Positions 3,171 to 48,811 of a DNA stretch of 64,000 bases are shown here, piece by piece (the stretch's first letter is position 1; each line of letters begins with the position of its first letter). The stretch is taken from NCBI GenBank assembly GCA_029858505.1, contig JAOUEW010000002.1:416851-480850 (forward strand), read 5' to 3'. This stretch comes from Deltaproteobacteria bacterium (lineage in GTDB: Bacteria > SAR324 > JACQKK01). The notes beneath the pieces are model-generated. The model ran no database searches. It was not told the DNA's origin and was given only the letters and a program-made list of their open reading frames with translations. A program made the position numbers and the translations under genes.

Positions 3171-3782
3171 TTAAAACATGTAGGTCAACGCCAATCCGGC
3201 ACCGCTACCATTGTAGGTAGAACCGGCTTTGGTATAGTTCAAGGCGAAAATTCGAAGACCTACCAACAAGAGGCCGGAAGTACCATCGCTCGTGATAAAA
3301 TCTCCCTCTAGAAGAAGGCCGGGAGCGTTATTGAAGGTGGTGGATCCTGAGATCAAAGAACCACTGGCAGAAAGCACGGGAGAAATGTGGTAGGTCAGAC
3401 CACCTCCTAACCGGTAACCGTCCCCCCGGTAGAAAAACAGAACATCCAAGGGGTAGCGGGTAAAGTCAAAACTTTGATTGGTGGCGGTGATTGAATTGTT
3501 TTTCCAGGAGATAGAAATTTGGGTTTCAAAGTCCTTGCTGTCGTTCAGCATGGATACTCCACCCCCCAAGGAAATTTGCCCCCCCGCAGACATGGACTCA
3601 CTTCTTCCGGTGGAATATGTGATGGACGCCAATGAATCACCTCCTTCGTCTATATTCATAAACAAAAGACCCCGCGTTTCCCCAGCCACGACAAAAGACG
3701 GAAGACTTATGCAGGAGACCATGAGCAGTGCATAAACCCAGGCCCATCTTGTAATTCTTTTTGACGTTCGATGTGAATTCAT
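3171..3782 (-). CDS. Secreted, probable outer-membrane beta-barrel protein
   Basis: About 203 residues from the ATG at 3782, which has GGAAGGGA 5 bases upstream; a longer reading to 3836 lacks this. A Sec signal is clear: basic RTSKRITR, hydrophobic VYALLMVSCISLPSFVVAG. The mature part has alternating polar/hydrophobic strands, Gly/Ser/Tyr-rich (AGGQISLGGGVSML, LGGGLTYHISPVLSASGSLI) and ends in aromatic LALTYMF, a terminal Phe as in many outer-membrane barrels. No family is assigned. It lies downstream of FTR1 on the same strand with a 144-base gap, so a link to metal uptake is possible but unproven. Confidence 0.65.
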   Translation of the reverse strand: MNSHRTSKRITRWAWVYALLMVSCISLPSFVVAGETRGLLFMNIDEGGDSLASITYSTGRSESMSAGGQISLGGGVSMLNDSKDFETQISISWKNNSITATNQSFDFTRYPLDVLFFYRGDGYRLGGGLTYHISPVLSASGSLISGSTTFNNAPGLLLEGDFITSDGTSGLLLVGLRIFALNYTKAGSTYNGSGAGLALTYMF

Positions 3783-3926
3783 GATTTCCCTTCCAGGTTG
3801 GTTAACAGAGGACAGTCGTTCAGAAGCGCAACGCAAAGTGCGAAGCTACTCTTATTCCTTAGGTAAAGAAAAATAGAAAAAGTAAATAAAAAGACACAGG
3901 AGCGGAGGATAAGGGGGATAAAAATG

Positions 3927-4742
3927 TTATCGCATAGCCTCCTGGGGGCGGTTGGCCCACCAGGTGAGAAGAAACAGAATGGAGAAGGTGGCCAGATAAA
4001 ACACCACCTGAATGCCAGCGGGTTGTTCCATATAGCCCAGCAGAATGCGCAGAATTTGCCCAGGAATGGTGGCTTCAGGCAGCCACCTGGAGGAATCCCA
4101 CCAGGATTCTCCCAGGGAAGGCAGGTACCCAGCCATGAGCAGCTGCCCCGCCCCCTGGGCGGCCAGCCCAGAGGCCAGCGCCACAATAAGCCAGCTGGTG
4201 ATGACAAACACCCGCCGCCCCAGCCGCATCAAGCCAAAATACACGGCCATACTTAGCGCAACCCCCAGCCCCATGCCCAATAAACCGCCCACCAGCATAA
4301 GGGTGGAATTTTGTTCGCCTCCCGCCAGAATACCGTACAGGAACAACACCATTTCACCCCCCTCGCGCATCACGGCGGCCCAAACCACCAGGGTTAACCA
4401 GTACAGGGGGCGGGCTCCCCGTTCAACCTCGTGGCCAACTTGGTTCATCTGGGCAGACCATTGGCGGCCGTGCCGACCCATCCACAGGTTATGCCAGCCC
4501 AGCATGGCCACGGCCAGAAACAATACCCCCGCCTGAAAGGCTGCCTGGCCATTGCCCTGAAACAAATCCGACAGGCTTTCCCAGAACCACGCCAGAATGA
4601 CAGACCCGGCGGCCCCCAACGACGCCCCCAGCCAAACCCACCGCCCACGCCCGGTAACATGTCGAGAGGCCGCCAGCACAATGCCCACAATGAGCCCGGC
4701 TTCCATAAACTCTCGGAACACAATGATTAAAGTGCTGACCAT
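3927..4742 (-). CDS. FTR1-family high-affinity iron permease
   Basis: 271 residues with about seven hydrophobic segments. Two REXXE motifs typical of FTR1/EfeU are visible: REFME near residue 10 (IVFREFMEAGLIVGIV) and REGGE near residue 120 (AAVMREGGEMVLFLYGI). These Glu residues bind ferric iron during transport through the inner membrane. Neighbouring EfeO/EfeB or copper oxidase partners are absent. A sigma-70 promoter with an overlapping dyad lies 68-97 bases upstream, consistent with iron-dependent repression (inferred). A His/Lys-poor C-terminus ends in WANRPQEAMR. Confidence 0.88.
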   Translation of the reverse strand: MVSTLIIVFREFMEAGLIVGIVLAASRHVTGRGRWVWLGASLGAAGSVILAWFWESLSDLFQGNGQAAFQAGVLFLAVAMLGWHNLWMGRHGRQWSAQMNQVGHEVERGARPLYWLTLVVWAAVMREGGEMVLFLYGILAGGEQNSTLMLVGGLLGMGLGVALSMAVYFGLMRLGRRVFVITSWLIVALASGLAAQGAGQLLMAGYLPSLGESWWDSSRWLPEATIPGQILRILLGYMEQPAGIQVVFYLATFSILFLLTWWANRPQEAMR

Positions 4743-4793
4743 GGACCCTTTGGGTTCAGAAGATTGTTAGGCGAAAAAGCATATTCAAACTAG

Positions 4794-4839
4794 ATTGAGA
4801 CTTAATCTCAATATAATGGTTTTGGTGGGGTAAAGTCAA
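4794..4839 (-). promoter_or_regulatory. Sigma-70 promoter with overlapping operator dyad for FTR1
   Basis: Read on the minus strand, TTGACT (4834-4839) and TATATT (4810-4815) are separated by 18 bases, a near-consensus promoter. Directly over the -10 and the likely start lies the imperfect palindrome TTGAGATTAAGTCTCAA (4795-4811; one mismatched pair). The spacing and position fit a repressor site, most simply a Fur-type regulator, but the bases do not match the classical Fur box closely. Confidence 0.65.
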
Positions 4840-4863
4840 TCCCTGAAAATAGAGTGATATATT

Positions 4864-32804: not shown

Positions 32805-33464
32805 TCACCGGGTTTCACGGGCCCCATTGCCCGTGGATAGTTCTGTTTCTTCCGGTTCTTGGGGAGAAGGGTGGGATGGGGGCTGCTGATAGCGTAGGTT
32901 GGGTGGTTGGTAAGAAGGGTAGGCTGAGGGGGTGGTCGGCAGACCGTATCGGGCGTAGGTGGACGGGATGGAAATGTTCGAGCGAGGGGTTGCGTTCGCC
33001 TCGAAACCATCTTCTCCGGGGGACAGATGTTCGATCTCAATGAGGCCAGTAACTGGAGCGGTTCTGCCATTCCCCCGGTTTTGGGCCGCCAGGGTGCTTT
33101 CTGGTTTGGCGGGGTTGAAGTTGAACATGGCAAGGCCAGAGACCAGGAACAACCCCGCCATGGCCGCGGCCAAAGGCAGCCGCATCCATGCGGATGCCGC
33201 GTGCCGCCGGGTTTCGGTTTGAAGCCTGGATTGGAAGGCGTTCCAGTCGGGCGGGGCCACCCGATGACGGGTTTCCCGCTCCAAACACACAAAAGCCGCC
33301 AGCGAACGTTCCAGCCCCCGCCACAGGTCTCGACAGGGTTGGCATTCTGCCATGTGGTTGCGCCATTCCGGGTGGGTGAGCACCTCCGGGTGGTCCACGG
33401 CCATCCGCTCAACAAGGGGGGTTTTATCGCAAACATGTTCAAAATGGGGGCGGTCTGTTTTCAT
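32805..33464 (-). CDS. Anti-sigma factor, zinc-finger type, membrane anchored
   Basis: 219 residues. The N-terminal ZAS motif is HPEWRNHMAECQPCRDLWRG, with H-x3-C-x2-C. A membrane helix follows (LPLAAAMAGLFLVSGLAMFN, residues about 107-127), then a Pro/Ser/Tyr-rich periplasmic part. It starts with ATGA overlapping the sigma gene. The protein should hold the sigma factor inactive until an envelope or redox signal is sensed. Confidence 0.85.
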   Translation of the reverse strand: MKTDRPHFEHVCDKTPLVERMAVDHPEVLTHPEWRNHMAECQPCRDLWRGLERSLAAFVCLERETRHRVAPPDWNAFQSRLQTETRRHAASAWMRLPLAAAMAGLFLVSGLAMFNFNPAKPESTLAAQNRGNGRTAPVTGLIEIEHLSPGEDGFEANATPRSNISIPSTYARYGLPTTPSAYPSYQPPNLRYQQPPSHPSPQEPEETELSTGNGARETR

Positions 33465-34126
33465 GGGGTCTGTTCCTTCCTGCTCCTTTGAGGATGGGAG
33501 AGGGTAAAAGGTTCAAGGTTTTTTTTCAGGTTGAGTCGGGCGTAATGCAGGCGTGATTTCACGCTCCCTTCTGGAATATCCAATATCTCGCTAATTTCTT
33601 TGGCTGAAAGCTCTTCCAGATAAAAGAGGGTCAGAATAATCCGGTGGGGGGGGCTTAATTGCTCCAAGCCTTTCCTCACCAAGCGACCCTCTTCTCCTTC
33701 CAGCACTACTTTTTCGGGGGATGGCCCCCGCTCGACCTGAATCAGGGTCGAGGGCAGATATTCCATGTCTTCTTCTTCCATGTGGGTCCAGCGGCGGGAG
33801 CGGTTCAATTGGCGCAGGGCTTCGTTGACCGCGATTCGGTATAACCAAGTGCGAAAGGATGAGCGCCCTTGGAATCCGTCTAAATGCCGGAAGACTTGAA
33901 GAAACACCTCTTGGGCCACATCCTGGGTCAGGGCGTCATCTTTTACGATGGAAAAGATCAGCCGGGCCGTGGCCGGGCTGTGGCGCTTGAACAATACCTC
34001 AAAGGCCCGGGAATCTCCCCGCACATGGGCCTGAATGAGAATGTCGTCCTCATTTTCCTCCCAGGCTTTCTTCGCTGGCGGAGCCTCTGCCGATGGCGAG
34101 GGAGGGTGGGGTGGGGGTTTGTCCAT
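33461..34126 (-). CDS. ECF sigma-70 factor (RpoE-like)
   Basis: 221 residues. Region 2 is FEVLFKRHSPATARLIFSIV, then AQEVFLQVFRHLDGFQGRSS and RTWLYRIAVNEALRQL; region 4 contains HRIILTLFYLEELSAKEISE and ILDIPEGSVKSRLHYARLNL. A Pro-rich head of about 25 residues is extra. It directs RNA polymerase to its own stress regulon and is coupled to the downstream anti-sigma gene by a 4-base overlap. Confidence 0.94.
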   Translation of the reverse strand: MDKPPPHPPSPSAEAPPAKKAWEENEDDILIQAHVRGDSRAFEVLFKRHSPATARLIFSIVKDDALTQDVAQEVFLQVFRHLDGFQGRSSFRTWLYRIAVNEALRQLNRSRRWTHMEEEDMEYLPSTLIQVERGPSPEKVVLEGEEGRLVRKGLEQLSPPHRIILTLFYLEELSAKEISEILDIPEGSVKSRLHYARLNLKKNLEPFTLSHPQRSRKEQTP

Positions 34127-34260: not shown

Positions 34261-34402
34261 AAATTGAGTTTGCATCCCGTGGAGAATTGTTTCATTCTAG
34301 GTCGGGCGGCAGGGAACAAAGAATAAAAGAACATGAAAGTTTATGTGCCCTGAACGATGTATTTCTGACGGGGGCGGAACCCTTTTTCTCTACGATTCAA
34401 CC

Positions 34403-35086
34403 ATGGCTCAACAAATCACTTCCCCTCAGCTTTTTCTTTTGGGGGGCTACGGCGTGGCGCTGGGGGTTGTGGCGGCAACCGCGGAACTGACTCTTCGGCA
34501 AGTGAATCAACCTGGGGGGGCTGCTTTGCTGCCCTTGGCAGGCTTAATACAGGGGCGGGGACCCGAAATATTGCAAGGAGAAACTTGGCGAGAGGCCGCC
34601 ATAGTGGTGCTGATGTTTCTTCCCGTTTGGCTGGTGCTGGGGCGCTGGCAAGATAGAATCATGGCTTTTCTGGCTTTGGGCAGCCTGTCTGGGGTGACCC
34701 GGCTGGTGGTAGTGAAACAGGCCATCGGCTGGCCCACTTCGCCGGAAGAATTTGACCTTTTGGGGGTATTTCCCACGCTGCTGGCCGGTCCGGTTTGGGC
34801 GGTGATGGCCATGTATTTATTGGTGGGATTGTTTTCTCTGCTCTATATGTACTACCTCCCCATTCGCATCCCTCCGGTGGTTCATCCGGTACAAGGGGTC
34901 TCCGCGGCCCTGGGGGGAGTGCTTCTGTTTTGGTCGTTTGTGGGTGGGGGCGATAGGGTTCTTGCTGGAACCATGTCCGGAGATTTTTCTTTGATTCTAT
35001 ACAGTCTGGGATTTTTTCTGGTGCTGGGTGGGGGAGGGTCTTACATGACGGTGTATTTAAAAAAACCCCGAGCGCGGTTTCACTAA
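34403..35086 (+). CDS. Unknown 227-aa multi-span membrane protein
   Basis: The frame is open from 34343, but the ATG at 34403 starts directly before the hydrophobic part (MAQQITSPQLFLLGGYGVAL). About six membrane helices follow, such as IVVLMFLPVWLVLGRW, FPTLLAGPVWAVMAMYLLVG and LFSLLYMYYLPI. No family is recognised. R5 lies 143 bases upstream. Confidence 0.65.
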   Translation: MAQQITSPQLFLLGGYGVALGVVAATAELTLRQVNQPGGAALLPLAGLIQGRGPEILQGETWREAAIVVLMFLPVWLVLGRWQDRIMAFLALGSLSGVTRLVVVKQAIGWPTSPEEFDLLGVFPTLLAGPVWAVMAMYLLVGLFSLLYMYYLPIRIPPVVHPVQGVSAALGGVLLFWSFVGGGDRVLAGTMSGDFSLILYSLGFFLVLGGGGSYMTVYLKKPRARFH

Positions 35087-35096
35087 AGTCAGCAGG

Positions 35097-36662
35097 TCAC
35101 GGCTTGGTGGGCACGGGCTTTTTGGGGGCTGGTTTGGTGGGCACCGGTATAGAATTAGGCAGCCCATAGAGTTTTCCCACCCGTTCTCGAATCGTTGGAA
35201 TCTCATCGGCTTTGAGCACCAGTGACCCCCGGCCCCCGCCCATGGTTTCCACGACATGAAATCCCTCTAGGGGAGATTTCAGGGCCTGCCGCAGTGAAGC
35301 GAGGGATGTGACGGCACGGCCATTGACCCGGACCACCATGCTGTTGGCCGAACTTTCGTATCCCAGGGTGGAGGGATCTGGGAAGACCTGAGAAATGATC
35401 ACGATTTTTTCTGGATGATTCCCTTCCGCCATGCTGTTCAGGGCATATTCAATAATCAACCGTTGGGGTGCCCGCTGGGTCCATCCTTTTCCCCAGGCTC
35501 GCAGGGCATCCAGTTGCAACTCTTGAAACACCACTCCTCCCAGCACCTCATAGTCCGCCGGTCCGTCAAAAGCATAAGGCAGCACTCGGTAGTCGGCATC
35601 TCGGTAGCGGCGGCGAACCAAGTTGATATCGACCACATTTCCATTTCGCCACACCTTGGCGGGCAGGGTTTTGGCCGAAGGCAGGTCATTCAAAGCCAGG
35701 GTGAAGGCCACCCGCCCATACAGGGGGTGTTGAATCTGCCCTTCGTTGTTGATCAAGTATCCGTTGACCACCAACAGCACATCTCCTGGCCGAATTTCCC
35801 TGGCCCCGGTGCCTCCCGATAAGACTTCCGGAATCAACACCCCGGGTCCCCCTGGCCGCAAGCCCAGGGCCTGGGCCAGGGCTGGGTGGTCTGTGCGCTG
35901 CCAAGTGAACCCCCGGTGGGCAAAAAACCATCCTGGGTGGTCGGCTGCCGCCACAAAGGCCGCCAGCACCGGAGAGGGCGTCACCTGGATTTCCTGGTTT
36001 TGGCTGGTGATGATGCCCACCACTTGGCCGTCCAGGGTCAGCACCTCGGCCCAGCCCAGCCCCCCCATGTTGGTGTTGGCCCGCAGTTGGGGAATTTCCA
36101 TGTTTCCGTAGCGGGATGTTCCGGCACGCACATCCACCACTTCTCCCGTTCCCTGCTCGAACCGCCCGGTGGAACGCCAGCGGTTAATTAGGAAACGCCC
36201 TCCTGAAAGCGCCTGGGGGGCCAAGGGCAGGGCTTCCAGGTCTTTCCAAAAGTCGGGGCTGTCTACGCGCAGCAATGCCAAGTCGAGTTCATAGTCTACC
36301 CGGACCAGCCGGACAGGGGTGCTGGGGGTGCGGCCCAGTTTCCCCGCTTCAATCAGGGTGGCGTTCCTCACCATTTCGGCGGTGGTGAGCAACCAACCCT
36401 TGCGAATGACCAGGGCAGAGCCTTGGATGGTGTCTTCGTTTTGTTTTTGCCAGGGGGCCCTGGGGTCGAAGGCCTGGTTGGTGACCCGCAGAGACACCAC
36501 CCCCCTGGGCTCTTCCACCCGGGTGGGGGCTTGCCCGGTTTGGGGCTGGGTGGTCTGGGCCAAAACCGAGCTGGCCTGGGCAAAGATCAGGGTGGCCTGG
36601 AAAATGACCAGCCAGGGGAGGAACACCAAGCCAGAAACAAGGAGTTTTCGGGGGGGAGTCAT
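35097..36662 (-). CDS. HtrA-like protein with degenerate protease site (probable pseudo-protease)
   Basis: 521 residues; ATGA overlap with the upstream HtrA gene. A signal sequence (LLVSGLVFLPWLVIFQATLI) is followed by a trypsin-like domain whose key positions are changed: TTAEMV where TNAHVV is expected, an Asp still present in DYELDLALLRVDSP, and TNMGGLGWAEV where GNSGGPV is expected. So the His and Ser are missing. PDZ-like regions follow (GGPGVLIPEVLSGGTGAREI; YESSANSMVVRVNGRAVTSL). It may bind unfolded or PDZ ligands or regulate its paralogue. Confidence 0.8.
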   Translation of the reverse strand: MTPPRKLLVSGLVFLPWLVIFQATLIFAQASSVLAQTTQPQTGQAPTRVEEPRGVVSLRVTNQAFDPRAPWQKQNEDTIQGSALVIRKGWLLTTAEMVRNATLIEAGKLGRTPSTPVRLVRVDYELDLALLRVDSPDFWKDLEALPLAPQALSGGRFLINRWRSTGRFEQGTGEVVDVRAGTSRYGNMEIPQLRANTNMGGLGWAEVLTLDGQVVGIITSQNQEIQVTPSPVLAAFVAAADHPGWFFAHRGFTWQRTDHPALAQALGLRPGGPGVLIPEVLSGGTGAREIRPGDVLLVVNGYLINNEGQIQHPLYGRVAFTLALNDLPSAKTLPAKVWRNGNVVDINLVRRRYRDADYRVLPYAFDGPADYEVLGGVVFQELQLDALRAWGKGWTQRAPQRLIIEYALNSMAEGNHPEKIVIISQVFPDPSTLGYESSANSMVVRVNGRAVTSLASLRQALKSPLEGFHVVETMGGGRGSLVLKADEIPTIRERVGKLYGLPNSIPVPTKPAPKKPVPTKP

Positions 36663-38296
36663 GGAAGCCTCCGGTCGGAGGGAATGCCATAGTTGGCCAA
36701 AATTTCCCTGTGGGCCTGGGCGGCATCATCTCGGTCGATAAATATAAGCGCGTGGGAATGGGCCAAGCGGATGCGGGTGTACGCTCCGCGGCCGTTCTCC
36801 AGTGCGGCCAGGGCCTCCTGCAGGGTGTTGACCTTTCGTCCGTTGATTTCCTCCACGATGGACCCGCTCATGCCCCGGTAGGCGCTGTTGACCGGATGGG
36901 GCAGCACCCGGGTGAGCACCAGGGCTTGGGCGGGCAGATCGGGTTTTTCAACCCGCTTGTAAAAGTGATGATACAGCAGATTTTTCCCGGCCTGCTCCCA
37001 GTAGTTGCCATAGGTGGCTAGGTATTCTTTGTCGAGAGGCATGAATACCAGCCCGGCGTAGATCAGGTAATAGGGTTCATGGTCGAACTGGTTTCTCATC
37101 CGCTCGCTGTCGGCGTAGGGGCTTAAAGGGAAGAGCACGGTTTCCTCCCGCTTCTTCCGCCACAGGGTCAGGGTTACCCGTTCTCCCGCCTGCATTTCTT
37201 CCGCCCGTTGAGAAAAATTCACCCGATGGCCATGGTAAGCGATGGTGCCGTCGTTGGCCACCGGGTCGCCCTCAATGGCCATCACCACATCGCCGGGTTG
37301 AACAAATTTCTCCGCCGCGGAGCCCGGTAACACCCGGTCCACCACCACCCCAGAGCGCCCCGATGGCAGCCCCAGCCATTGGCGATAAGCGGGGTTTTCC
37401 AGGTTGCTGGTGACCACCCCCATTTCGCCAAAACCATGATAGGTGCCGTCTTGAATGTCATCAAGAAACCGGCGGATCACCGGCACGGGGATGAAAAACC
37501 CCACCGAGCTTAGTTGAGTGTTGGTTTGGAAGGCCACCCCCACCACCTTGCCCCCCTGCAACACGGGTCCGCCGCTGTTTCCAGGGTTGATGGCCGAGTC
37601 GGTCTGAATGGACAAATGCAGGTCCGCGCCGCTGTGAATGTAGCGGTTAAACTCTATCCGAGACACCACCCCTTCGGTGCGAGAGAGTTTTTCTCCCCCG
37701 GCCGGATAGCCATAGGTGCGCACGTTGGTTTGCAGGGTGGGCAGGCCGCCCAGTTTGAGGGGGGTTACCCGGGCAAAGGCGGGGTCGTCCACCCGCAGCA
37801 GGGCCAGGTCGCAGTCGTGAGCAATGAAGGCCACCTTGGCGAAATAGGCGGTGTCTTTGCCGCCTTGCCGCAGAATGATCTGCTTGGCGTCGCTGACCAC
37901 ATGGGCGTTGGTCAACACTTCTCCGGGGGCAATCACAAACCCCGATCCGGTGGCCCGTTCTCTGGCTTGGTGGTTCCAGGGGGTGGCCCAGTCTCCGTGC
38001 TGGCTGGTGACTTCGATGGACACCACGGCTTGCTCCAGAGCGTCTTCTCCCAAGGGCCGGCTCCATAGCAACAGGAACACCAAGCCAGCAAAAAGCAGTC
38101 CGCCAGCCCCAATGGCTGCCTGCTTTTGCGGGGTAGATAACCGCTGCCAGCGTGCGGCCACGGCCTTTCCCCCAGGGACCCGTTGAGCTTGGTGTTTTGC
38201 CCACGACAGGCTGGCTTGGCCCCATGGGATCATCCGCCGCAACCGGTGCCGGAACCCGCCAGGGGTTGCGCCGGTCGTTGGTTTCTTGGGGGCCAT
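36659..38296 (-). CDS. HtrA-family serine protease with PDZ domains
   Basis: About 545 residues from the ATG at 38296, which has AGGA 6 bases upstream. A basic head and one membrane helix (AAIGAGGLLFAGLVFLLLWS) anchor it. The catalytic triad is intact: His in EVLTNAHVVSDAKQ, Asp in IAHDCDLALLRVDD, Ser in AINPGNSGGPVLQGG. Two PDZ domains follow (SGVVVDRVLPGSAAEKFVQP; MSGSIVEEINGRKVNTLQEA). Acts as periplasmic protein quality control. Next gene downstream is its degenerate paralogue. Confidence 0.92.
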   Translation of the reverse strand: MAPKKPTTGATPGGFRHRLRRMIPWGQASLSWAKHQAQRVPGGKAVAARWQRLSTPQKQAAIGAGGLLFAGLVFLLLWSRPLGEDALEQAVVSIEVTSQHGDWATPWNHQARERATGSGFVIAPGEVLTNAHVVSDAKQIILRQGGKDTAYFAKVAFIAHDCDLALLRVDDPAFARVTPLKLGGLPTLQTNVRTYGYPAGGEKLSRTEGVVSRIEFNRYIHSGADLHLSIQTDSAINPGNSGGPVLQGGKVVGVAFQTNTQLSSVGFFIPVPVIRRFLDDIQDGTYHGFGEMGVVTSNLENPAYRQWLGLPSGRSGVVVDRVLPGSAAEKFVQPGDVVMAIEGDPVANDGTIAYHGHRVNFSQRAEEMQAGERVTLTLWRKKREETVLFPLSPYADSERMRNQFDHEPYYLIYAGLVFMPLDKEYLATYGNYWEQAGKNLLYHHFYKRVEKPDLPAQALVLTRVLPHPVNSAYRGMSGSIVEEINGRKVNTLQEALAALENGRGAYTRIRLAHSHALIFIDRDDAAQAHREILANYGIPSDRRLP

Positions 38297-41996: not shown

Positions 41997-44972
41997 ATGA
42001 ACAACGGAACTGAGAACAACGGGATTCGCCGCCGGGATTTTTTTAAAGCCCTGGCCGCGGGTGGAGCCACGGCGGCGGTTGCCGCTGGGTGCGCCGACCG
42101 CACGGAAAACCTGATCCCCTACGTCATGCCGCCGGACAACATTGAGTTTGTTCCCGGTGTTCCCCTGGAATACGCCACCACCTGCGCCGAGTGCCCCGCG
42201 GCCTGCGGCATGGTGGTGAAAACCCGCGAAGGCCGGGCAATCAAGGCCGAAGGGAATCCGGACCACCCCTTAAGCCAAGGGGCGTTGTGCATTCGCGGTC
42301 AATCCTCGTTGCAGTCTTTGTATAACCCCGCCCGTATTTCTGCGGCGATGGTGCGTGAAGGCCAGGATTTTAAAGCTGTGGATTGGGAAACCGCGGAAAA
42401 AACAGCCGCCGAGCGCCTGCGCAAAGCCGGCAAGGGCCGCCAAGTGGTGCTGTGGACCACCAACCGCAGCGGCACCCGCAACAAATTCTTAGATCAGTGG
42501 GTGGGCGCTTTGGGTGGGACGAAGATCACCCTGGAACCCTTAGGGCAGCACAACCTGCGGGCCGCCAACCAGGCCGTGTTTGGCCGGAATGAGCTTCCCC
42601 TGTACCGGTTGGACCAATCGGACCTGCTGGTGAACTTTGGCGCGGATCTTCTGGAAACCTTTGGCAACACAGTGCGGAACAACCGCGATTTTGCCGCGAT
42701 GCACGCCATTGATGAAAAACGGATGACCAAGGGGAAAATGTTCCATGTGGCCCCCCACGTGTCGATGACTGGTGCCAATGCCGATGAATGGGTAAACATT
42801 GCCCCTGGCAGCGAAGCCGTGGTGGCTCTGGCCCTGGCGGCCCGCGTTTCGGCCAAGACCGGACGGGGCGGTGAGGTGCGTGGATTCCTTGCTGGATATA
42901 CCCTGGAAAAAGCCAGTCAGGCCAGCGGCGCTTCCGTGGAGGCCCTGACGGCTTTGGCCGATGAAATTGCCCGGGCCAAGGCACCCCTGGCCGTGGCTGG
43001 CGGAAACCTGACCGCCACCGCCCAGGGAACCCAAACCCACATTGCGGTAAACGTGTTGAACGCGGTCTCTGGCGCGGTAGGGAAAACCTACCTGCTGGGT
43101 GCCGGACAGGAAATTGACAACTCTGATTCTTTCAAAGCCCAAATGGACTTGGTGGCCCGCATGAAGGCTGGTCAAGTGAAGGCTTTGATCGTGGACGGTG
43201 CCAACCCGTTGTATCACCTGCCCAAGTCGGCGGGCGTGGCCGAGGCCTTGGCCAAAGTCGAAACCATCATCAGCGTGTCTTCCAGTTGGGATGAAACCAC
43301 CCGGCAGGCTCATGTGGTGCTGCCCAGCCTTTCGGCCTATGAAAGCTGGGGAGACGCCAACCCGCAAAAAGGGGTATGGTCTCTGATGCAGCCCGTGATG
43401 GCCCCGGTGTACAAAGTGAAGGCCTCGGAGAATACCCTGATTTCTCTGGCCAAGCGCCTGGGTGCTGGTGCCTTCCCTGCCGACTACAAAACTTATTTGC
43501 AAAATGCCTGGAAAGGCATTGCTGGTGGGTCGGCGGAAGCCTGGAAAAACGCCTTGCAAAAAGGCGGCGTGTTTAGCCAAACCGGTGGCAGCGGAGCCTC
43601 TCTGCGGGCCGCTGGCGTACGGGGCAATTTTGCCGCCCCCGCGCTGACCGGAGACGGCTTGGTGCTGCTGCCCGCCAACAACATGCGTGTGCGCGACGGC
43701 TCCAAGGCCCAAAACCCCTGGCTGCAAGAAATTCCGGATCCGGTGTCTCAGGTGGTGTGGACCGCCTGGGCCGACATCAATCCGGAAACCGGAAAAAAAC
43801 TGGGTCTTCGCCACGGTCAAAAAATTCGGATCACCTCTCCTCATGGCATGGTGGTTACCGCGGCGTTCTTCCATTACGGCATTCACGAGGACGCCATTGC
43901 CATCCCCATGGGCTATGGCCACCACGGATCGGGCAGCAAATCGGCCGATGATCACGGGGTGAACGTTCTTGATCTTCTGCCGGCTTCCTTCGACGCTTCC
44001 TCTGGCGAGTTTGCCTACGTGGCCACCCGGGTGAAGGTGGAAGGGATGGATGAAGACGCTTACTTTGTGCAGTTGGATGGAAACCCCCGCCAAGAAGGCC
44101 GTGGGTTGATTCAAACCATGACCCTGGAGCAGGTGAAAAAGAAAGAGCCGCCCCACCATGGTCACCATGCGATGCGCGAACGGCCGGATGACTTCTACCG
44201 CTACCGCCCACGGCCTGCTGGATATTACCAGCCTTACCGGTGGGGCATGGTGGTGGATGTGGACCGCTGCACGGGCTGTTCGGCCTGCGTGGCGGCCTGT
44301 TACGCCGAAAACAACATTCCCGTGGTGGGCCGTGAGCGGATGTGGCTGGGCCGTGAGATGTCTTGGATTCGCATCGAGCGGTTCTTGGAAGGCCGGGGTG
44401 ATTCGTACAAAACCCTGATGCAGCCGGCCATGTGCCAGCAATGCGGCAACGCGGGTTGCGAGCCCGTCTGCCCCATTTATGCCACCTACCACACCCCCGA
44501 AGGGTTGAACGCCCAGGTGTACAACCGATGCGTGGGTACCCGGTATTGCAGCAACAACTGCGTGTACAAGCAGCGGCGCTACAACTGGTTCCAGTTTGAG
44601 TTCGAAGCTCCCCTGCATCTTCAACTGAACCCGGATGTGTCGGTGCGCAGCCGCGGGGTGATGGAAAAGTGCACCTTCTGCAGCCAGCGCATTATGCGGG
44701 CCCGCCATGCGGCCAACGAAAAAGGCCGCGACGTGATGGACGGAGAAATTACCCCGGCCTGCGTGCAGACCTGCCCCACCAACGCTCTGGTATTCGGGAA
44801 CTTGGCCGACCCCACCAGCCGGGTGGCGAAGATTTCCCTGTGGAGCGACAAGGAAGACGAAGAAAAGCAGAAAAAAATGGTACGTCAATACCGGATGCTT
44901 GAAGAGTTGAAAGTGCTTCCGGCCGTAACGTACCTGAGAAAAGTGACCCACAAAGAAATTGAGGAGGGCTGA
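41997..44972 (+). CDS. actB: Alternative complex III subunit B (molybdopterin-like plus Fe-S fusion)
   Basis: 991 residues. A Tat-like signal (NGIRRRDFFKALAAGGAT) is followed by a molybdopterin-oxidoreductase-like domain starting TCAECPAACGMVVKTREGRA with a fourth Cys in GALCIRGQ, and by a C-terminal ferredoxin-like part with four Cys clusters: DRCTGCSACVAACYAENN, CQQCGNAGCEPVCPIY, CVGTRYCSNNC and KCTFCSQRI...CVQTCPTNAL. In known ACIII the first domain holds no Mo cofactor. It passes electrons from the quinol site to ActA. Confidence 0.95.
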   Translation: MNNGTENNGIRRRDFFKALAAGGATAAVAAGCADRTENLIPYVMPPDNIEFVPGVPLEYATTCAECPAACGMVVKTREGRAIKAEGNPDHPLSQGALCIRGQSSLQSLYNPARISAAMVREGQDFKAVDWETAEKTAAERLRKAGKGRQVVLWTTNRSGTRNKFLDQWVGALGGTKITLEPLGQHNLRAANQAVFGRNELPLYRLDQSDLLVNFGADLLETFGNTVRNNRDFAAMHAIDEKRMTKGKMFHVAPHVSMTGANADEWVNIAPGSEAVVALALAARVSAKTGRGGEVRGFLAGYTLEKASQASGASVEALTALADEIARAKAPLAVAGGNLTATAQGTQTHIAVNVLNAVSGAVGKTYLLGAGQEIDNSDSFKAQMDLVARMKAGQVKALIVDGANPLYHLPKSAGVAEALAKVETIISVSSSWDETTRQAHVVLPSLSAYESWGDANPQKGVWSLMQPVMAPVYKVKASENTLISLAKRLGAGAFPADYKTYLQNAWKGIAGGSAEAWKNALQKGGVFSQTGGSGASLRAAGVRGNFAAPALTGDGLVLLPANNMRVRDGSKAQNPWLQEIPDPVSQVVWTAWADINPETGKKLGLRHGQKIRITSPHGMVVTAAFFHYGIHEDAIAIPMGYGHHGSGSKSADDHGVNVLDLLPASFDASSGEFAYVATRVKVEGMDEDAYFVQLDGNPRQEGRGLIQTMTLEQVKKKEPPHHGHHAMRERPDDFYRYRPRPAGYYQPYRWGMVVDVDRCTGCSACVAACYAENNIPVVGRERMWLGREMSWIRIERFLEGRGDSYKTLMQPAMCQQCGNAGCEPVCPIYATYHTPEGLNAQVYNRCVGTRYCSNNCVYKQRRYNWFQFEFEAPLHLQLNPDVSVRSRGVMEKCTFCSQRIMRARHAANEKGRDVMDGEITPACVQTCPTNALVFGNLADPTSRVAKISLWSDKEDEEKQKKMVRQYRMLEELKVLPAVTYLRKVTHKEIEEG

Positions 44973-44974
44973 AC

Positions 44975-46342
44975 TTGAGCGCCATTACCTACGCGGATGT
45001 AAACAAGGATATTTTGCAGACCATGGTCCGCCCCAAACCGGCGTACTTTTTGGTGCTGTCTGGCGCGGCCCTGATGTTGTTGATTGGGGTTCTGTCGCTG
45101 GCCATCCAGATTGATACCGGGATGGGGCTGGTGGGTGTGACCCACCCCATCGGATGGGGCTTTTATATCACCAACTTCGTGTTCTGGATTGGGATTGGGC
45201 ACGCCGGAACGCTGATTTCGGCCGTGCTGTTCCTCACCCGGGCACCTTGGCGAAACCCGATTTACCGCGCCTCGGAAGCCATGACGGTGTTTGCCGTGAT
45301 GACCGCGGGACTCTTTCCGCTGATTCACGTGGGCCGCAACTGGTATGCCTACTTTCTGCTGCCCTACCCCAACCAACGGATGCTTTGGACGAACTTTAAG
45401 TCTCCTCTGGAGTGGGACGTGTTCGCCGTGACCACATACCTCTCTATTTCGGTCACGTTCTTCATCATCGGCCTGATCCCCGACTTTGCCGCCATGCGGG
45501 ACTCCTCGGTGGGAATTCGCCGACAAATCTTTACCTTGATGGCGGCCGGGTGGACCAACTCCTATCAGCATTGGCTCCACTACATGCGGGGTTACTTAAT
45601 TTTGGCGGCACTGTCCACTCCACTGGTGTTCTCGGTGCACTCCATCGTGTCGTTCGACTTTGCCATGTCGTTCATGCCCGGATGGCACACCACCATCTTC
45701 CCCCCCTACTTTGTGGCCGGGGCGATTTTCTCTGGCATGGCCATGGTGCTGACCATTATCATCCCCCTTCGCAGCATCTTTGGACTGGAAAAATATGTGA
45801 CCCACCACGTGCTGCAAAGCTCGGCCCGGCTGATTTTATTCACCTCGTTCATCGTGGGGTATGCCTACACCACCGAGGTCTTCATCGCCTGGTACTCTGG
45901 GGTGTCCTTTGAACGCTCTCTGTTCTACTTCCGTCTGTTCGGCGAGTTTGCCGACCGCACGCCCTACTCGGAAGGCCACCAATTGGGCGCGCCGACCCTG
46001 GCTTTCTGGGTGATGTACTTCTGTAACGTGATCTCTCCCTTGCCATTGTGGCGGTTCAAGATCAGGAACAATCTGATGGCGCTGTTCATCATTTCCATCC
46101 TGATTAACATCGGCATGTGGTTCGAGCGCTACAACATCATCGTGAGTTCCTTGCAGCGTGACTTCGATCCCTTCACCTGGGGAACCTATTGGCCCACGGT
46201 GATTGAAACCGGCGTAACGGTTGGCAGCTTTGGGTTCTTCTTCACCATGTTCTTCCTGTTCGTGCGGGCCATGCCCAGCATGGCCATCGCGGAACTGAAA
46301 GAAGGCTTGCCAGCACCAAGAAAAAACAAACAGGCTCATTAG
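44975..46342 (+). CDS. actC: Alternative complex III subunit C, NrfD-like quinol-binding
   Basis: 455 residues from a TTG start with GAGGAGG 8 bases upstream, 2 bases after the actB stop. About ten membrane helices; NrfD-like segments such as GWGFYITNFVFWIGIGHAGT, FPLIHVGRNWYAYFLLPYPN and SFMPGWHTTIFPPYFVAGAI. Forms the quinol-oxidising site with ActB. Confidence 0.95.
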   Translation: MSAITYADVNKDILQTMVRPKPAYFLVLSGAALMLLIGVLSLAIQIDTGMGLVGVTHPIGWGFYITNFVFWIGIGHAGTLISAVLFLTRAPWRNPIYRASEAMTVFAVMTAGLFPLIHVGRNWYAYFLLPYPNQRMLWTNFKSPLEWDVFAVTTYLSISVTFFIIGLIPDFAAMRDSSVGIRRQIFTLMAAGWTNSYQHWLHYMRGYLILAALSTPLVFSVHSIVSFDFAMSFMPGWHTTIFPPYFVAGAIFSGMAMVLTIIIPLRSIFGLEKYVTHHVLQSSARLILFTSFIVGYAYTTEVFIAWYSGVSFERSLFYFRLFGEFADRTPYSEGHQLGAPTLAFWVMYFCNVISPLPLWRFKIRNNLMALFIISILINIGMWFERYNIIVSSLQRDFDPFTWGTYWPTVIETGVTVGSFGFFFTMFFLFVRAMPSMAIAELKEGLPAPRKNKQAH

Positions 46343-46380
46343 AATCCCATTGGACCACAACACTGAAAGGAACCACACCA

Positions 46381-46917
46381 ATGATTAAACCGAAACCTTT
46401 CAAGGGCGTCTGGGGTTCGTTTGAATACCTGGACGAAACCTGCTCGGTCATCCGGAAACTTCGGGAGCAAAAAAAGGATTACAGCGTCCTTTCTCCCTTC
46501 CATCATTACGAGCTTCAGGAAGCCATGGGCAATCCCTCTAGCCGGATTCCCTTCATTACGCTGTGCTTCGGGGGGATGGGAATTTTCTTTGGCTACGGGT
46601 TTCCATCCTGGACGGCTTTGCAGTGGGTGTTGCCGGTGAGCGCCAAGCCCATTGTGTCTATTCCCCCCTTTACCATCATCGGGTTTGAGATGATGGTTCT
46701 GCTGGGTGGTCTTTCTACCGCGTTGGGCATGTTTGTGCTGGCCAACCTGCAGCTGCGGAAAGAGCCGCTGCCAAGTTCTGCGGCCTATAAAAACTATGGC
46801 CGTTTTTCCAATGACCGGTTTGGCGTGGTGGTTCGCTGCGGAGAGCAAGAAGCCGCGGAGGTGGAACGGTTGATGCGCGCCCATAGTGCTGAGGAGGTAA
46901 TCCGTGAAAGCAACTAA
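46381..46917 (+). CDS. actD: Alternative complex III subunit D (DUF3341)
   Basis: 178 residues; AAAGGAA upstream. A soluble N-terminal half starts GVWGSFEYLDETCSVIRKLR and has VLSPFHHYELQEAMG, then two helices (FITLCFGGMGIFFGYGF, FTIIGFEMMVLLGGLSTALG) and a C-terminal SNDRFGVVVRCGEQEAAEVE domain, the standard DUF3341 order. Structural membrane subunit of ACIII. Its end overlaps actE by 14 bases. Confidence 0.93.
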   Translation: MIKPKPFKGVWGSFEYLDETCSVIRKLREQKKDYSVLSPFHHYELQEAMGNPSSRIPFITLCFGGMGIFFGYGFPSWTALQWVLPVSAKPIVSIPPFTIIGFEMMVLLGGLSTALGMFVLANLQLRKEPLPSSAAYKNYGRFSNDRFGVVVRCGEQEAAEVERLMRAHSAEEVIRESN

Positions 46918-47524
46918 CCAACGGCGGAAAATCGCCATGATCGGCTGTTTGGCCGCCGCCATGGTGTTCGGAGGAGGGTTTTTAGCGGTGTCCTCGTTTG
47001 GTGGAAGTGAAGACGGTGAGGAAAAGCCGCAAAACTGGTCGAGTTACGATGAACGCCACCCTTGGTTTGATGGTGTTTATTGGGATTGGTTCCGGGATAT
47101 GTTTAACCAAACCTCTTTGAAGCCCCAAGAAGTGGGGACGATTCAGGAGTTTCCGTTGGATTCCGTTCCCCGCACCGGGGTAGAGGACCGCATTGACCCA
47201 CAAAACATGGGCCAGCGCTACTCGTCCCCTAAAAATCCCGTGGCGAAAACCGCCGAATCGGTGGCCCAGGGCCGGGTGATGTATGAAACCTATTGCGGCC
47301 CGTGCCACGGTAACGACGGAAAGGCCACGACCTCCATTTCTGAAAATTGGTTTTTTGCCCCCAATCTGGTGGATTTGAATCCGGAACTGACTGAGTCCCG
47401 GATTTACAATCAGATTCGATATGGCGGAGCGGTGATGCCTCCATATGCCATTCAGACGTCTCAGAAGGACCGGTGGAACATCGTCAACTACATGAAAAGC
47501 AAAGACTTCGGCAAAGGAAAATAA
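46904..47524 (+). CDS. actE: Alternative complex III subunit E, monoheme cytochrome c
   Basis: 206 residues from a GTG start with GAGGAGG upstream. An N-terminal signal/anchor helix (IAMIGCLAAAMVFGGGFLAV) precedes a cytochrome c domain with one CGPCH heme site (GRVMYETYCGPCHGNDGKAT) and the axial Met in GGAVMPPYA. Transfers electrons to the terminal acceptor. Confidence 0.94.
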   Translation: MKATNQRRKIAMIGCLAAAMVFGGGFLAVSSFGGSEDGEEKPQNWSSYDERHPWFDGVYWDWFRDMFNQTSLKPQEVGTIQEFPLDSVPRTGVEDRIDPQNMGQRYSSPKNPVAKTAESVAQGRVMYETYCGPCHGNDGKATTSISENWFFAPNLVDLNPELTESRIYNQIRYGGAVMPPYAIQTSQKDRWNIVNYMKSKDFGKGK

Positions 47525-47527
47525 CCC

Positions 47528-48811
47528 ATGAAGGACATTCTCCAACAATCCACGCTCCAGTTGAAACCCAACTGGAAGATGATCCTCCTGGCGATGGTGG
47601 GGGTCGGTCTATTGGCTTTCATCGCCGGTGTTTCCACCGGAAACGCCGAACGGGCCTGGGAAGCATTATTGCTGAACACCTTGTTTTGGGGCGGGATTGC
47701 CCAAGCGGGCGTCATGCTGGGGGTCATTTGGCAAATCACCGATGCCAAATGGGGCCGTCCGTTCAAGCGGGTGGCGGAAGGGTTTGCGGCGTTTCTGCCA
47801 GCGGCATTGGTCATGTTTCTGTTGATCATCCTGGTGGGAAATTCCTACTTGTTCGAGTGGGTAGAGCATCCCATGGAGGTGAAGAAGGCCTACCTGAACC
47901 TTCCGTTCTTCATTTCCAGGAACATCATTGGTTTTTCGCTGATGTACGGCATCAGTATGTTTTTCCTCATGGCCTCTCTGAAGCCAGACCTGATGCTGGC
48001 CCGTTCTTTGGTGCCCGGCTTTGGAGGAAAAATGGGTGATCGGGTGATGGCTTTGGCCAACAAACTGCTGAAGAATGGCGAACAAGACCCGGCCAAAGAA
48101 GCGATTCGGTTAGAGGCCTTTTCCCGCAAAGTGGCTCCTCTGCTGGGGGTGACCTACACCATCGTGATGACCATGGTGGCGGTTGATTTTGTGATGAGCC
48201 TGGATCAGGAATGGTTTTCCACCTTGTTTGGGGTGTATTTCTTCGTGGGTAATATTTACACCACCCTGGCCATGATGCTGATCGTGATGTATTTTGTCCG
48301 GCAGAAACCAGGGGTAGCCGAGTACGTCACCATCAACCGGATGCACGACCTGGCGAAGCTGACCTTTGCTTTTGCCATGTTGTGGACCTACATGACGTTC
48401 GCTCACTATCTCATTATTTGGTATGCCAACGTTCCAGAAGAAACCCCCTTCATGGTCACCCGTGCCTGGGCAGACACCCCCTGGAGACCCGTGTTCTGGA
48501 CTCTGCTTGGTGTGCTGTTTATTTTCCCCTACCTGGGGCTCATGTCTCGCACGGTGTGTCGAACGCCGGCCGCTACCGCGGTGGTTGGCACCATTTTGGT
48601 GTGCGGGCAGTTTATGTCCCATTACATGATGGTGGTGCCTTCCATTCAAGACCGCCACGAGCACCCCACGTTCCTGATGGGGTATCCTGAAATTTTGGTG
48701 ACCTTGGGCTTTGCCGGAGGGTTCTTCCTGTGCTTCATGCTGTACATGTCTACCGTTCCCATTCTGCCGATTTCAGACAAGCATTTGTGCAAGTCGTGGC
48801 ACGGAAGATAG
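47528..48811 (+). CDS. actF: Alternative complex III subunit F, membrane protein
   Basis: 427 residues; AAAGGAA upstream, 3 bases after the actE stop. About ten helices; family-like segments include RAWEALLLNTLFWGGIAQAG, FFISRNIIGFSLMYGISMFF and LDQEWFSTLFGVYFFVGNIY. ActF is related to ActC but lacks the main quinol site. It closes the operon; a perfect terminator follows. Confidence 0.93.
   Translation: MKDILQQSTLQLKPNWKMILLAMVGVGLLAFIAGVSTGNAERAWEALLLNTLFWGGIAQAGVMLGVIWQITDAKWGRPFKRVAEGFAAFLPAALVMFLLIILVGNSYLFEWVEHPMEVKKAYLNLPFFISRNIIGFSLMYGISMFFLMASLKPDLMLARSLVPGFGGKMGDRVMALANKLLKNGEQDPAKEAIRLEAFSRKVAPLLGVTYTIVMTMVAVDFVMSLDQEWFSTLFGVYFFVGNIYTTLAMMLIVMYFVRQKPGVAEYVTINRMHDLAKLTFAFAMLWTYMTFAHYLIIWYANVPEETPFMVTRAWADTPWRPVFWTLLGVLFIFPYLGLMSRTVCRTPAATAVVGTILVCGQFMSHYMMVVPSIQDRHEHPTFLMGYPEILVTLGFAGGFFLCFMLYMSTVPILPISDKHLCKSWHGR

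Follow-up and report, generated by a model that had tools for sequence, protein, structure and literature searches.

Why should a bacterium keep, directly downstream of an intact HtrA protease gene, a full-length paralogue that has lost its catalytic residues? The question is raised by two adjoining genes in a 64,000-nucleotide stretch of a SAR324 genome (positions 416,851 to 480,850 of contig JAOUEW010000002.1, GenBank assembly GCA_029858505.1; hereafter the window), which we call gene A (the upstream, active copy) and gene B (the downstream, dead copy). A first-pass annotation made from the sequence alone had proposed that B was retained under selection for a non-catalytic role, such as substrate presentation or regulation of its active partner.

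An active protease and its degenerate paralogue

Both genes lie on the reverse strand. Gene A (36659..38296) encodes a membrane-anchored HtrA/Deg protease of 545 amino acids, with a transmembrane (TM) helix followed by Trypsin_2, PDZ and PDZ_3 domains, while gene B (35097..36662) encodes a pseudoprotease paralogue of 521 amino acids, with a degenerate Trypsin_2 domain, PDZ and PDZ_3. The stop of A and the start of B share the four nucleotides ATGA (36662..36659, reverse strand), an overlap already reported by the first-pass annotation and indicative of translational coupling. The same annotation read the upstream triad correctly: H132 (LTNAHVV), D163 (DCDLALL) and S241 (NPGNSGGP) are all in place in gene A and the oxyanion glycine is also intact, which places the protein among the S1C (HtrA) serine peptidases. 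When gene B is aligned to A, its triad columns hold E (LTTAEMV), D (ELDLALL) and W (TNMGGLGWAEV), so that TTAEMV and TNMGGLGWAEV do indeed stand where the His and Ser motifs belong, and B falls outside the intact-triad definition of S1C.

Gene B is nonetheless a single open frame with no internal stops. It had been described as long, in-frame and PDZ-bearing, or more exactly it bears PDZ plus PDZ_3: Pfam recognises Trypsin_2 (5.9e-7) and PDZ_3 (3.7e-20), and the PDZ match, at 21.5 bits, is slightly below the Pfam cut-off of 23.2. The two proteins are paralogues, with 26% identity over 470 aligned columns (2e-35), and share the domain order Trypsin_2-PDZ-PDZ_3, which is that of the Deg9/Deg2 type.

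Structure prediction, suggested as a check at the outset, was carried out on A and B singly. The AlphaFold2 model of A contains an N-terminal TM helix at residues ~59-78, and that of B has a mean pLDDT of 81.6; Foldseek searches with the B model returned Deg9/Deg2 as top matches (TM-score 0.82-0.83 by target length), and plant Deg9 and Deg2 are also the nearest PDB entries in sequence to A and to B alike. The fold is therefore of the plant Deg9/Deg2 kind and differs from that of DegP. Plant Deg9 and Deg2 are active enzymes, and we know of no description of either that mentions a co-encoded dead paralogue. The hydrophobic helix at the N-terminus of the B model reads as a putative signal peptide, and both proteins would face the periplasm.

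Distribution and residue patterns of the pair

Across 52 SAR324 genomes, A and B were both present in 32 (10/10 in the family of the window and 22 in a sister family) and jointly missing from 19, namely 11 genomes from two other families of the class, six from a single genus and two further drafts; one 74% complete draft (G029) held only a fragment of B, at a contig edge. Wherever the residues were visible in SAR324 pairs, A had H, D and S, and B was without Ser and His throughout; a ‘Q’ at a catalytic column in L037 comes from a frame truncated where the contig stops and is likely to be artefactual.

A search of 383 genomes for PDZ_3 (PF17815) turned up 19 with matches beyond SAR324; five of these had adjacent pairs, each with the upstream copy active and the downstream copy dead (5/5). 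Whole-phylum searches then detected PDZ_3 in 26/58 genomes of a phylum that we label Y, each with at least two matches and nearly all of these adjacent pairs, and in 74/195 genomes of a phylum Z, with ~43 counted as having pairs; from one member, Akkermansia muciniphila (genome G549, one of whose M60 peptidases is identical to PDB 7sci across 253 aligned residues), we infer that phylum Z is Verrucomicrobiota. A check for TIGR02145, made to see whether phylum Y might be Fibrobacterota, gave no match. In the 40 pairs read from these searches, B lacked Ser in 40/40 and every scorable A (39/39) was intact. The pair is thus present in SAR324, Verrucomicrobiota, Spirochaetota and phylum Y, as well as in genomes G239 and G306, and in at least four bacterial phyla its order is always active then dead. 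The view that it is an oddity of SAR324 was rejected, as pairs occur in other phyla. Adjacent active and dead paralogues kept together across relatives make this an active/inactive HtrA pair, and the split between the two exceeds chance, because the same split appears in every relative scored.

No dead copy without an active partner was found among the genomes read, which included part of those with a single hit. In the first survey, unpaired PDZ_3 proteases had His and Ser in 15/15 cases and Asp in 14/15, with Glu in one, and ten further matches outside the listed pairs all had the Ser motif (L229 among them is an A gene located where a contig stops, and in L233 the His search pattern was unmatched). 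Judged by their motifs, the unpaired proteases examined look active.

Residues were counted in 76 sequences of B and 75 of A. Ser was kept in 75/75 A and 0/76 B; His was kept in 74/74 A sequences with a residue at that column and in 1/76 B. The survey of relatives that had been proposed at the start therefore yielded no second gene with an intact triad. The sole dead copy with the catalytic His (LTTEHLLR; L213, 2101-4344, forward strand) has lost Asp and Ser. The first-pass annotation had also stated that the downstream gene keeps the fold and the Asp region; the fold stood, as did the Asp in the window's own gene B, but most relatives have lost that residue, which is kept in 11/76 B sequences and replaced by Asn in 58/76. 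The Ser column of B differs widely from one lineage to the next (among the residues seen are W, Q, A, T, F, Y and D, with Thr in 5/76). Other positions are almost fixed: a B-specific Asp four residues ahead of the former catalytic Asp is found in 74/76, and a Pro-Trp ahead of the protease domain occurs in 76/76 B and is nearly invariant in A too. A potential gene overlap is common as well: in 42/71 pairs, an in-frame candidate start for B is placed so as to give an overlap of exactly 4 nt with A, and a candidate start lies ≤24 nt from the end of A in all but one of the 71.

Two pairs come from well-known hosts. In Akkermansia muciniphila (L223, genome G549), the active A frame ends at 3257 and B occupies 3263-4843, starting with a lipobox-like LGGC; a literature search on Akkermansia HtrA and on a mutant library gave nothing about the pair. 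In Leptospira interrogans, a plasmid-collection search found adjacent genes annotated as ‘S1C family serine protease’ and ‘PDZ domain-containing protein’, which scored 570.7 and 416.0 bits against our own A and B group models, respectively. We identify these as LIC20143 (triad columns H/D/S) and LIC20144 (S/N/F), because their layout matches the operon, including adenine phosphoribosyltransferase on chromosome II, that was reported for LIC20143/LIC20144 in an in silico study (PMC7709667). That study found no protease domain in LIC20144 and described it as PDZ-only (PMC7709667), so its degenerate protease domain went unrecognised; this is the same kind of pair, published as an operon only. The study also suggested a heterodimer for LIC11112/LIC11111, an overlapping protease/PDZ-only couple on chromosome I (PMC7709667), and LIC11111 could likewise conceal a degenerate protease domain.

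Selection and origin of gene B

In five close SAR324 comparisons, dN/dS was 0.16, 0.13, 0.065, 0.15 and 0.20 for B, and 0.17, 0.12, 0.05, 0.10 and 0.08 for A; the dead protease domain of B by itself gave 0.07-0.23 (the L056/L057 comparison was set aside, its dS of 0.02 being too small). We also looked for frame-breaking decay of B, which the first-pass annotation had named as evidence against its proposal, and found none. With neither intact-triad relatives nor frame decay, and with the catalytic Ser and His gone almost everywhere under such low dN/dS, there is good support for the view that selection has retained B for a non-catalytic role.

Mean column conservation in A was 0.66 for the protease domain, 0.49 for PDZ and 0.45 for PDZ_3; the corresponding values in B were 0.40, 0.43 and 0.45. 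This profile indicates that the extra constraint imposed by catalysis is gone from B and that constraint on its PDZ parts is kept.

In a 62-row tree, a single branch (98/98, present in 100% of bootstrap trees) separated all dead copies from the other sequences. Several dead copies in this tree have long branches, and those of the copies from outside SAR324 could help draw them together. When the analysis was restricted to PDZ and PDZ_3 columns (132 rows), a branch again set the dead copies apart (97), and another did so for the unpaired proteases (98), so the grouping is not due to shared loss of catalysis. Recent independent duplication in each lineage was rejected in three non-SAR324 pairs, where AU tests ruled against A and B of the same genome as sisters (p = 0.0097, 0.0016 and 0.00013). 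These trees, whose root is not fixed, are most simply read as one ancient duplication, after which the unit was co-inherited or transferred. By all these sequence comparisons, B is an old pseudoprotease under selection.

Proposed role of gene B

The dead site, the selection on B, the strict order and adjacency, the co-occurrence and the grouping of dead copies in the tree are direct observations, and recurrence of the same ordered pair in at least four phyla argues that the dead sister is kept for a job other than cutting. As translation of the two genes is coupled and their co-occurrence is strict, we favour, with a probability of roughly 65%, a role for B as a non-catalytic subunit or regulator of the envelope protease A, much as MamO serves MamE. 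Under this proposal, A and B would be a conserved, co-translated two-gene unit derived from one Deg9/Deg2-type ancestor through an old duplication, after which B would have lost catalysis while keeping the parts used for HtrA assembly and peptide binding (the N-terminal Pro-Trp, PDZ and PDZ_3). B would most likely join A, whether by mixing with it in the same oligomers or by forming oligomers that stack on it, and would control substrate access to the active sites of A or the timing of its activity, as MamO does for MamE. HtrA proteins form oligomers of protease-domain trimers, with higher assembly needing PDZ in several cases, and Deg5 and Deg8 assemble into 1:1 hetero-oligomers (PMC4877387).

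Activation, restraint and substrate presentation are all plausible by analogy with MamO/MamE. Co-transcription and co-occurrence fall short of proving contact, and we infer the physical A-B complex, along with the direction of control and the substrates. How A and B meet may vary, because a lipoprotein-like N-terminus of B is seen in certain lineages and is apparently absent from the rest; a lipobox-like motif was seen in 8/76 dead copies, Akkermansia included, and membrane attachment of B may differ among lineages accordingly. A stronger version, to which we give somewhat less than an even chance, is that the pair is an obligate two-subunit HtrA, in which the A-B complex would be the working enzyme: a heteromeric envelope protease-chaperone that arose in one ancient duplication and was carried through several phyla.

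Three known systems offer partial parallels. The pair resembles MamE/MamO in joining an active HtrA to a degenerate HtrA-fold partner in one gene cluster, and MamO is needed for MamE-dependent proteolysis with its own triad dispensable (PMC4794232). However, MamO carries a TauE-type transporter domain and sits in magnetosome islands, and the dead copies of magnetosomes have three separate origins, whereas that of the present pair apparently has one. Identity with magnetosome MamE/MamO was rejected, as scores were far below the curated cut-offs for both MamE and MamO; against the MamE model, P0001 and P0002 reached 60.8 and 20.8 bits, the cut-off being 800. Plant Deg7 fuses active and inactive halves, the inactive half reportedly serving trimerization (PMC3473262), and in layout the present pair resembles a two-gene version of this protein, itself a single polypeptide that carries four PDZ domains. 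The third parallel, PflC of the Campylobacter flagellar motor, is HtrA-like, lacks catalytic residues and acts as a structural lattice protein (PMC11482838); it is a motor scaffold, and an overlapping active partner gene is absent from its description.

PflC also serves as precedent for the idea that B has a non-catalytic job of its own (as a scaffold, a chaperone, or a binder of peptides or metal), apart from A and co-expressed with it for related envelope work, and MamO likewise binds metal independently of MamE activation (PMC4794232). We consider such independence unlikely, since it leaves unexplained why no partnerless dead copy was found and why order and overlap are fixed across phyla. 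Two other accounts fare far worse. The loss of catalytic residues is what a recent or decaying pseudogene would display, yet the frame is full-length in dozens of genomes, dN/dS is low, B-specific residues are conserved and the dead copies share a single tree branch. These results contradict that account, and we regard it as ruled out by the dN/dS values and the full-length frames, with a negligible residual probability. That B might still be enzymatic by means of other residues draws some encouragement from conservation of its pocket region inside lineages and from the occasional Thr at the Ser column; the wide variation of that column between lineages and the absence of His from 75/76 make a shared new mechanism improbable, and we give this account very little credence.

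The genomic neighbourhood bears on one further alternative. At lower window coordinates than the pair lie a forward-strand gene for a membrane protein with no Pfam match (34343..35086), whose homologues are likewise placed in several genomes of the family, and then, beyond it and on the reverse strand, a gene for an ECF sigma factor (33461..34126) that overlaps one for a probable anti-sigma factor (32805..33464), the two together spanning 32805-34126. The probable anti-sigma factor has no Pfam match and carries HxxxCxxC and one hydrophobic TM segment. The sigma gene is syntenic with the pair inside the window's SAR324 family, adjoining it in eight genomes, the window included, and the anti-sigma homologues have HxxxCxxC and one hydrophobic segment in 8/8. 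Taken with the membrane anchor of A, this synteny makes a link to sigma signalling possible within that family, where the pair might release the ECF sigma factor through cleavage of the membrane anti-sigma factor, B serving as a sensor or brake in the manner of DegS/RseB. We hold this to be improbable and a lineage-specific use at most, because the sister SAR324 family and other phyla have different neighbours: in the sister family, BacA (undecaprenyl-diphosphatase) flanks the pair on one side, and on the other a gene for a polyprenyl synthase precedes what look like RimP, NusA and IF2 genes. A comparison of neighbours and their Pfam domains found no genes common to pairs across phyla, and as neighbours differ between lineages, no shared pathway is visible for the pair. 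Elsewhere in the window (41997-48811, forward strand), genes for a molybdopterin oxidoreductase bearing Fe-S domains, together with two NrfD-like membrane proteins, resemble an alternative complex III-type or related respiratory cluster.

Active/dead HtrA pairs have so far been known mainly from magnetosomes and from fused eukaryotic proteins. The pair described here, with an apparently single origin and a range of at least four phyla, has been largely unrecognised, in part because annotation labels the dead copy ‘PDZ domain-containing protein’. The age and spread of the pair go well beyond what a single window could reveal, and the reading that B has a non-catalytic role is supported in its general form. 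As its hosts include Leptospira and Akkermansia muciniphila, a gut bacterium available in culture, control of a quality-control protease by a pseudoprotease can be tested outside magnetosomes.
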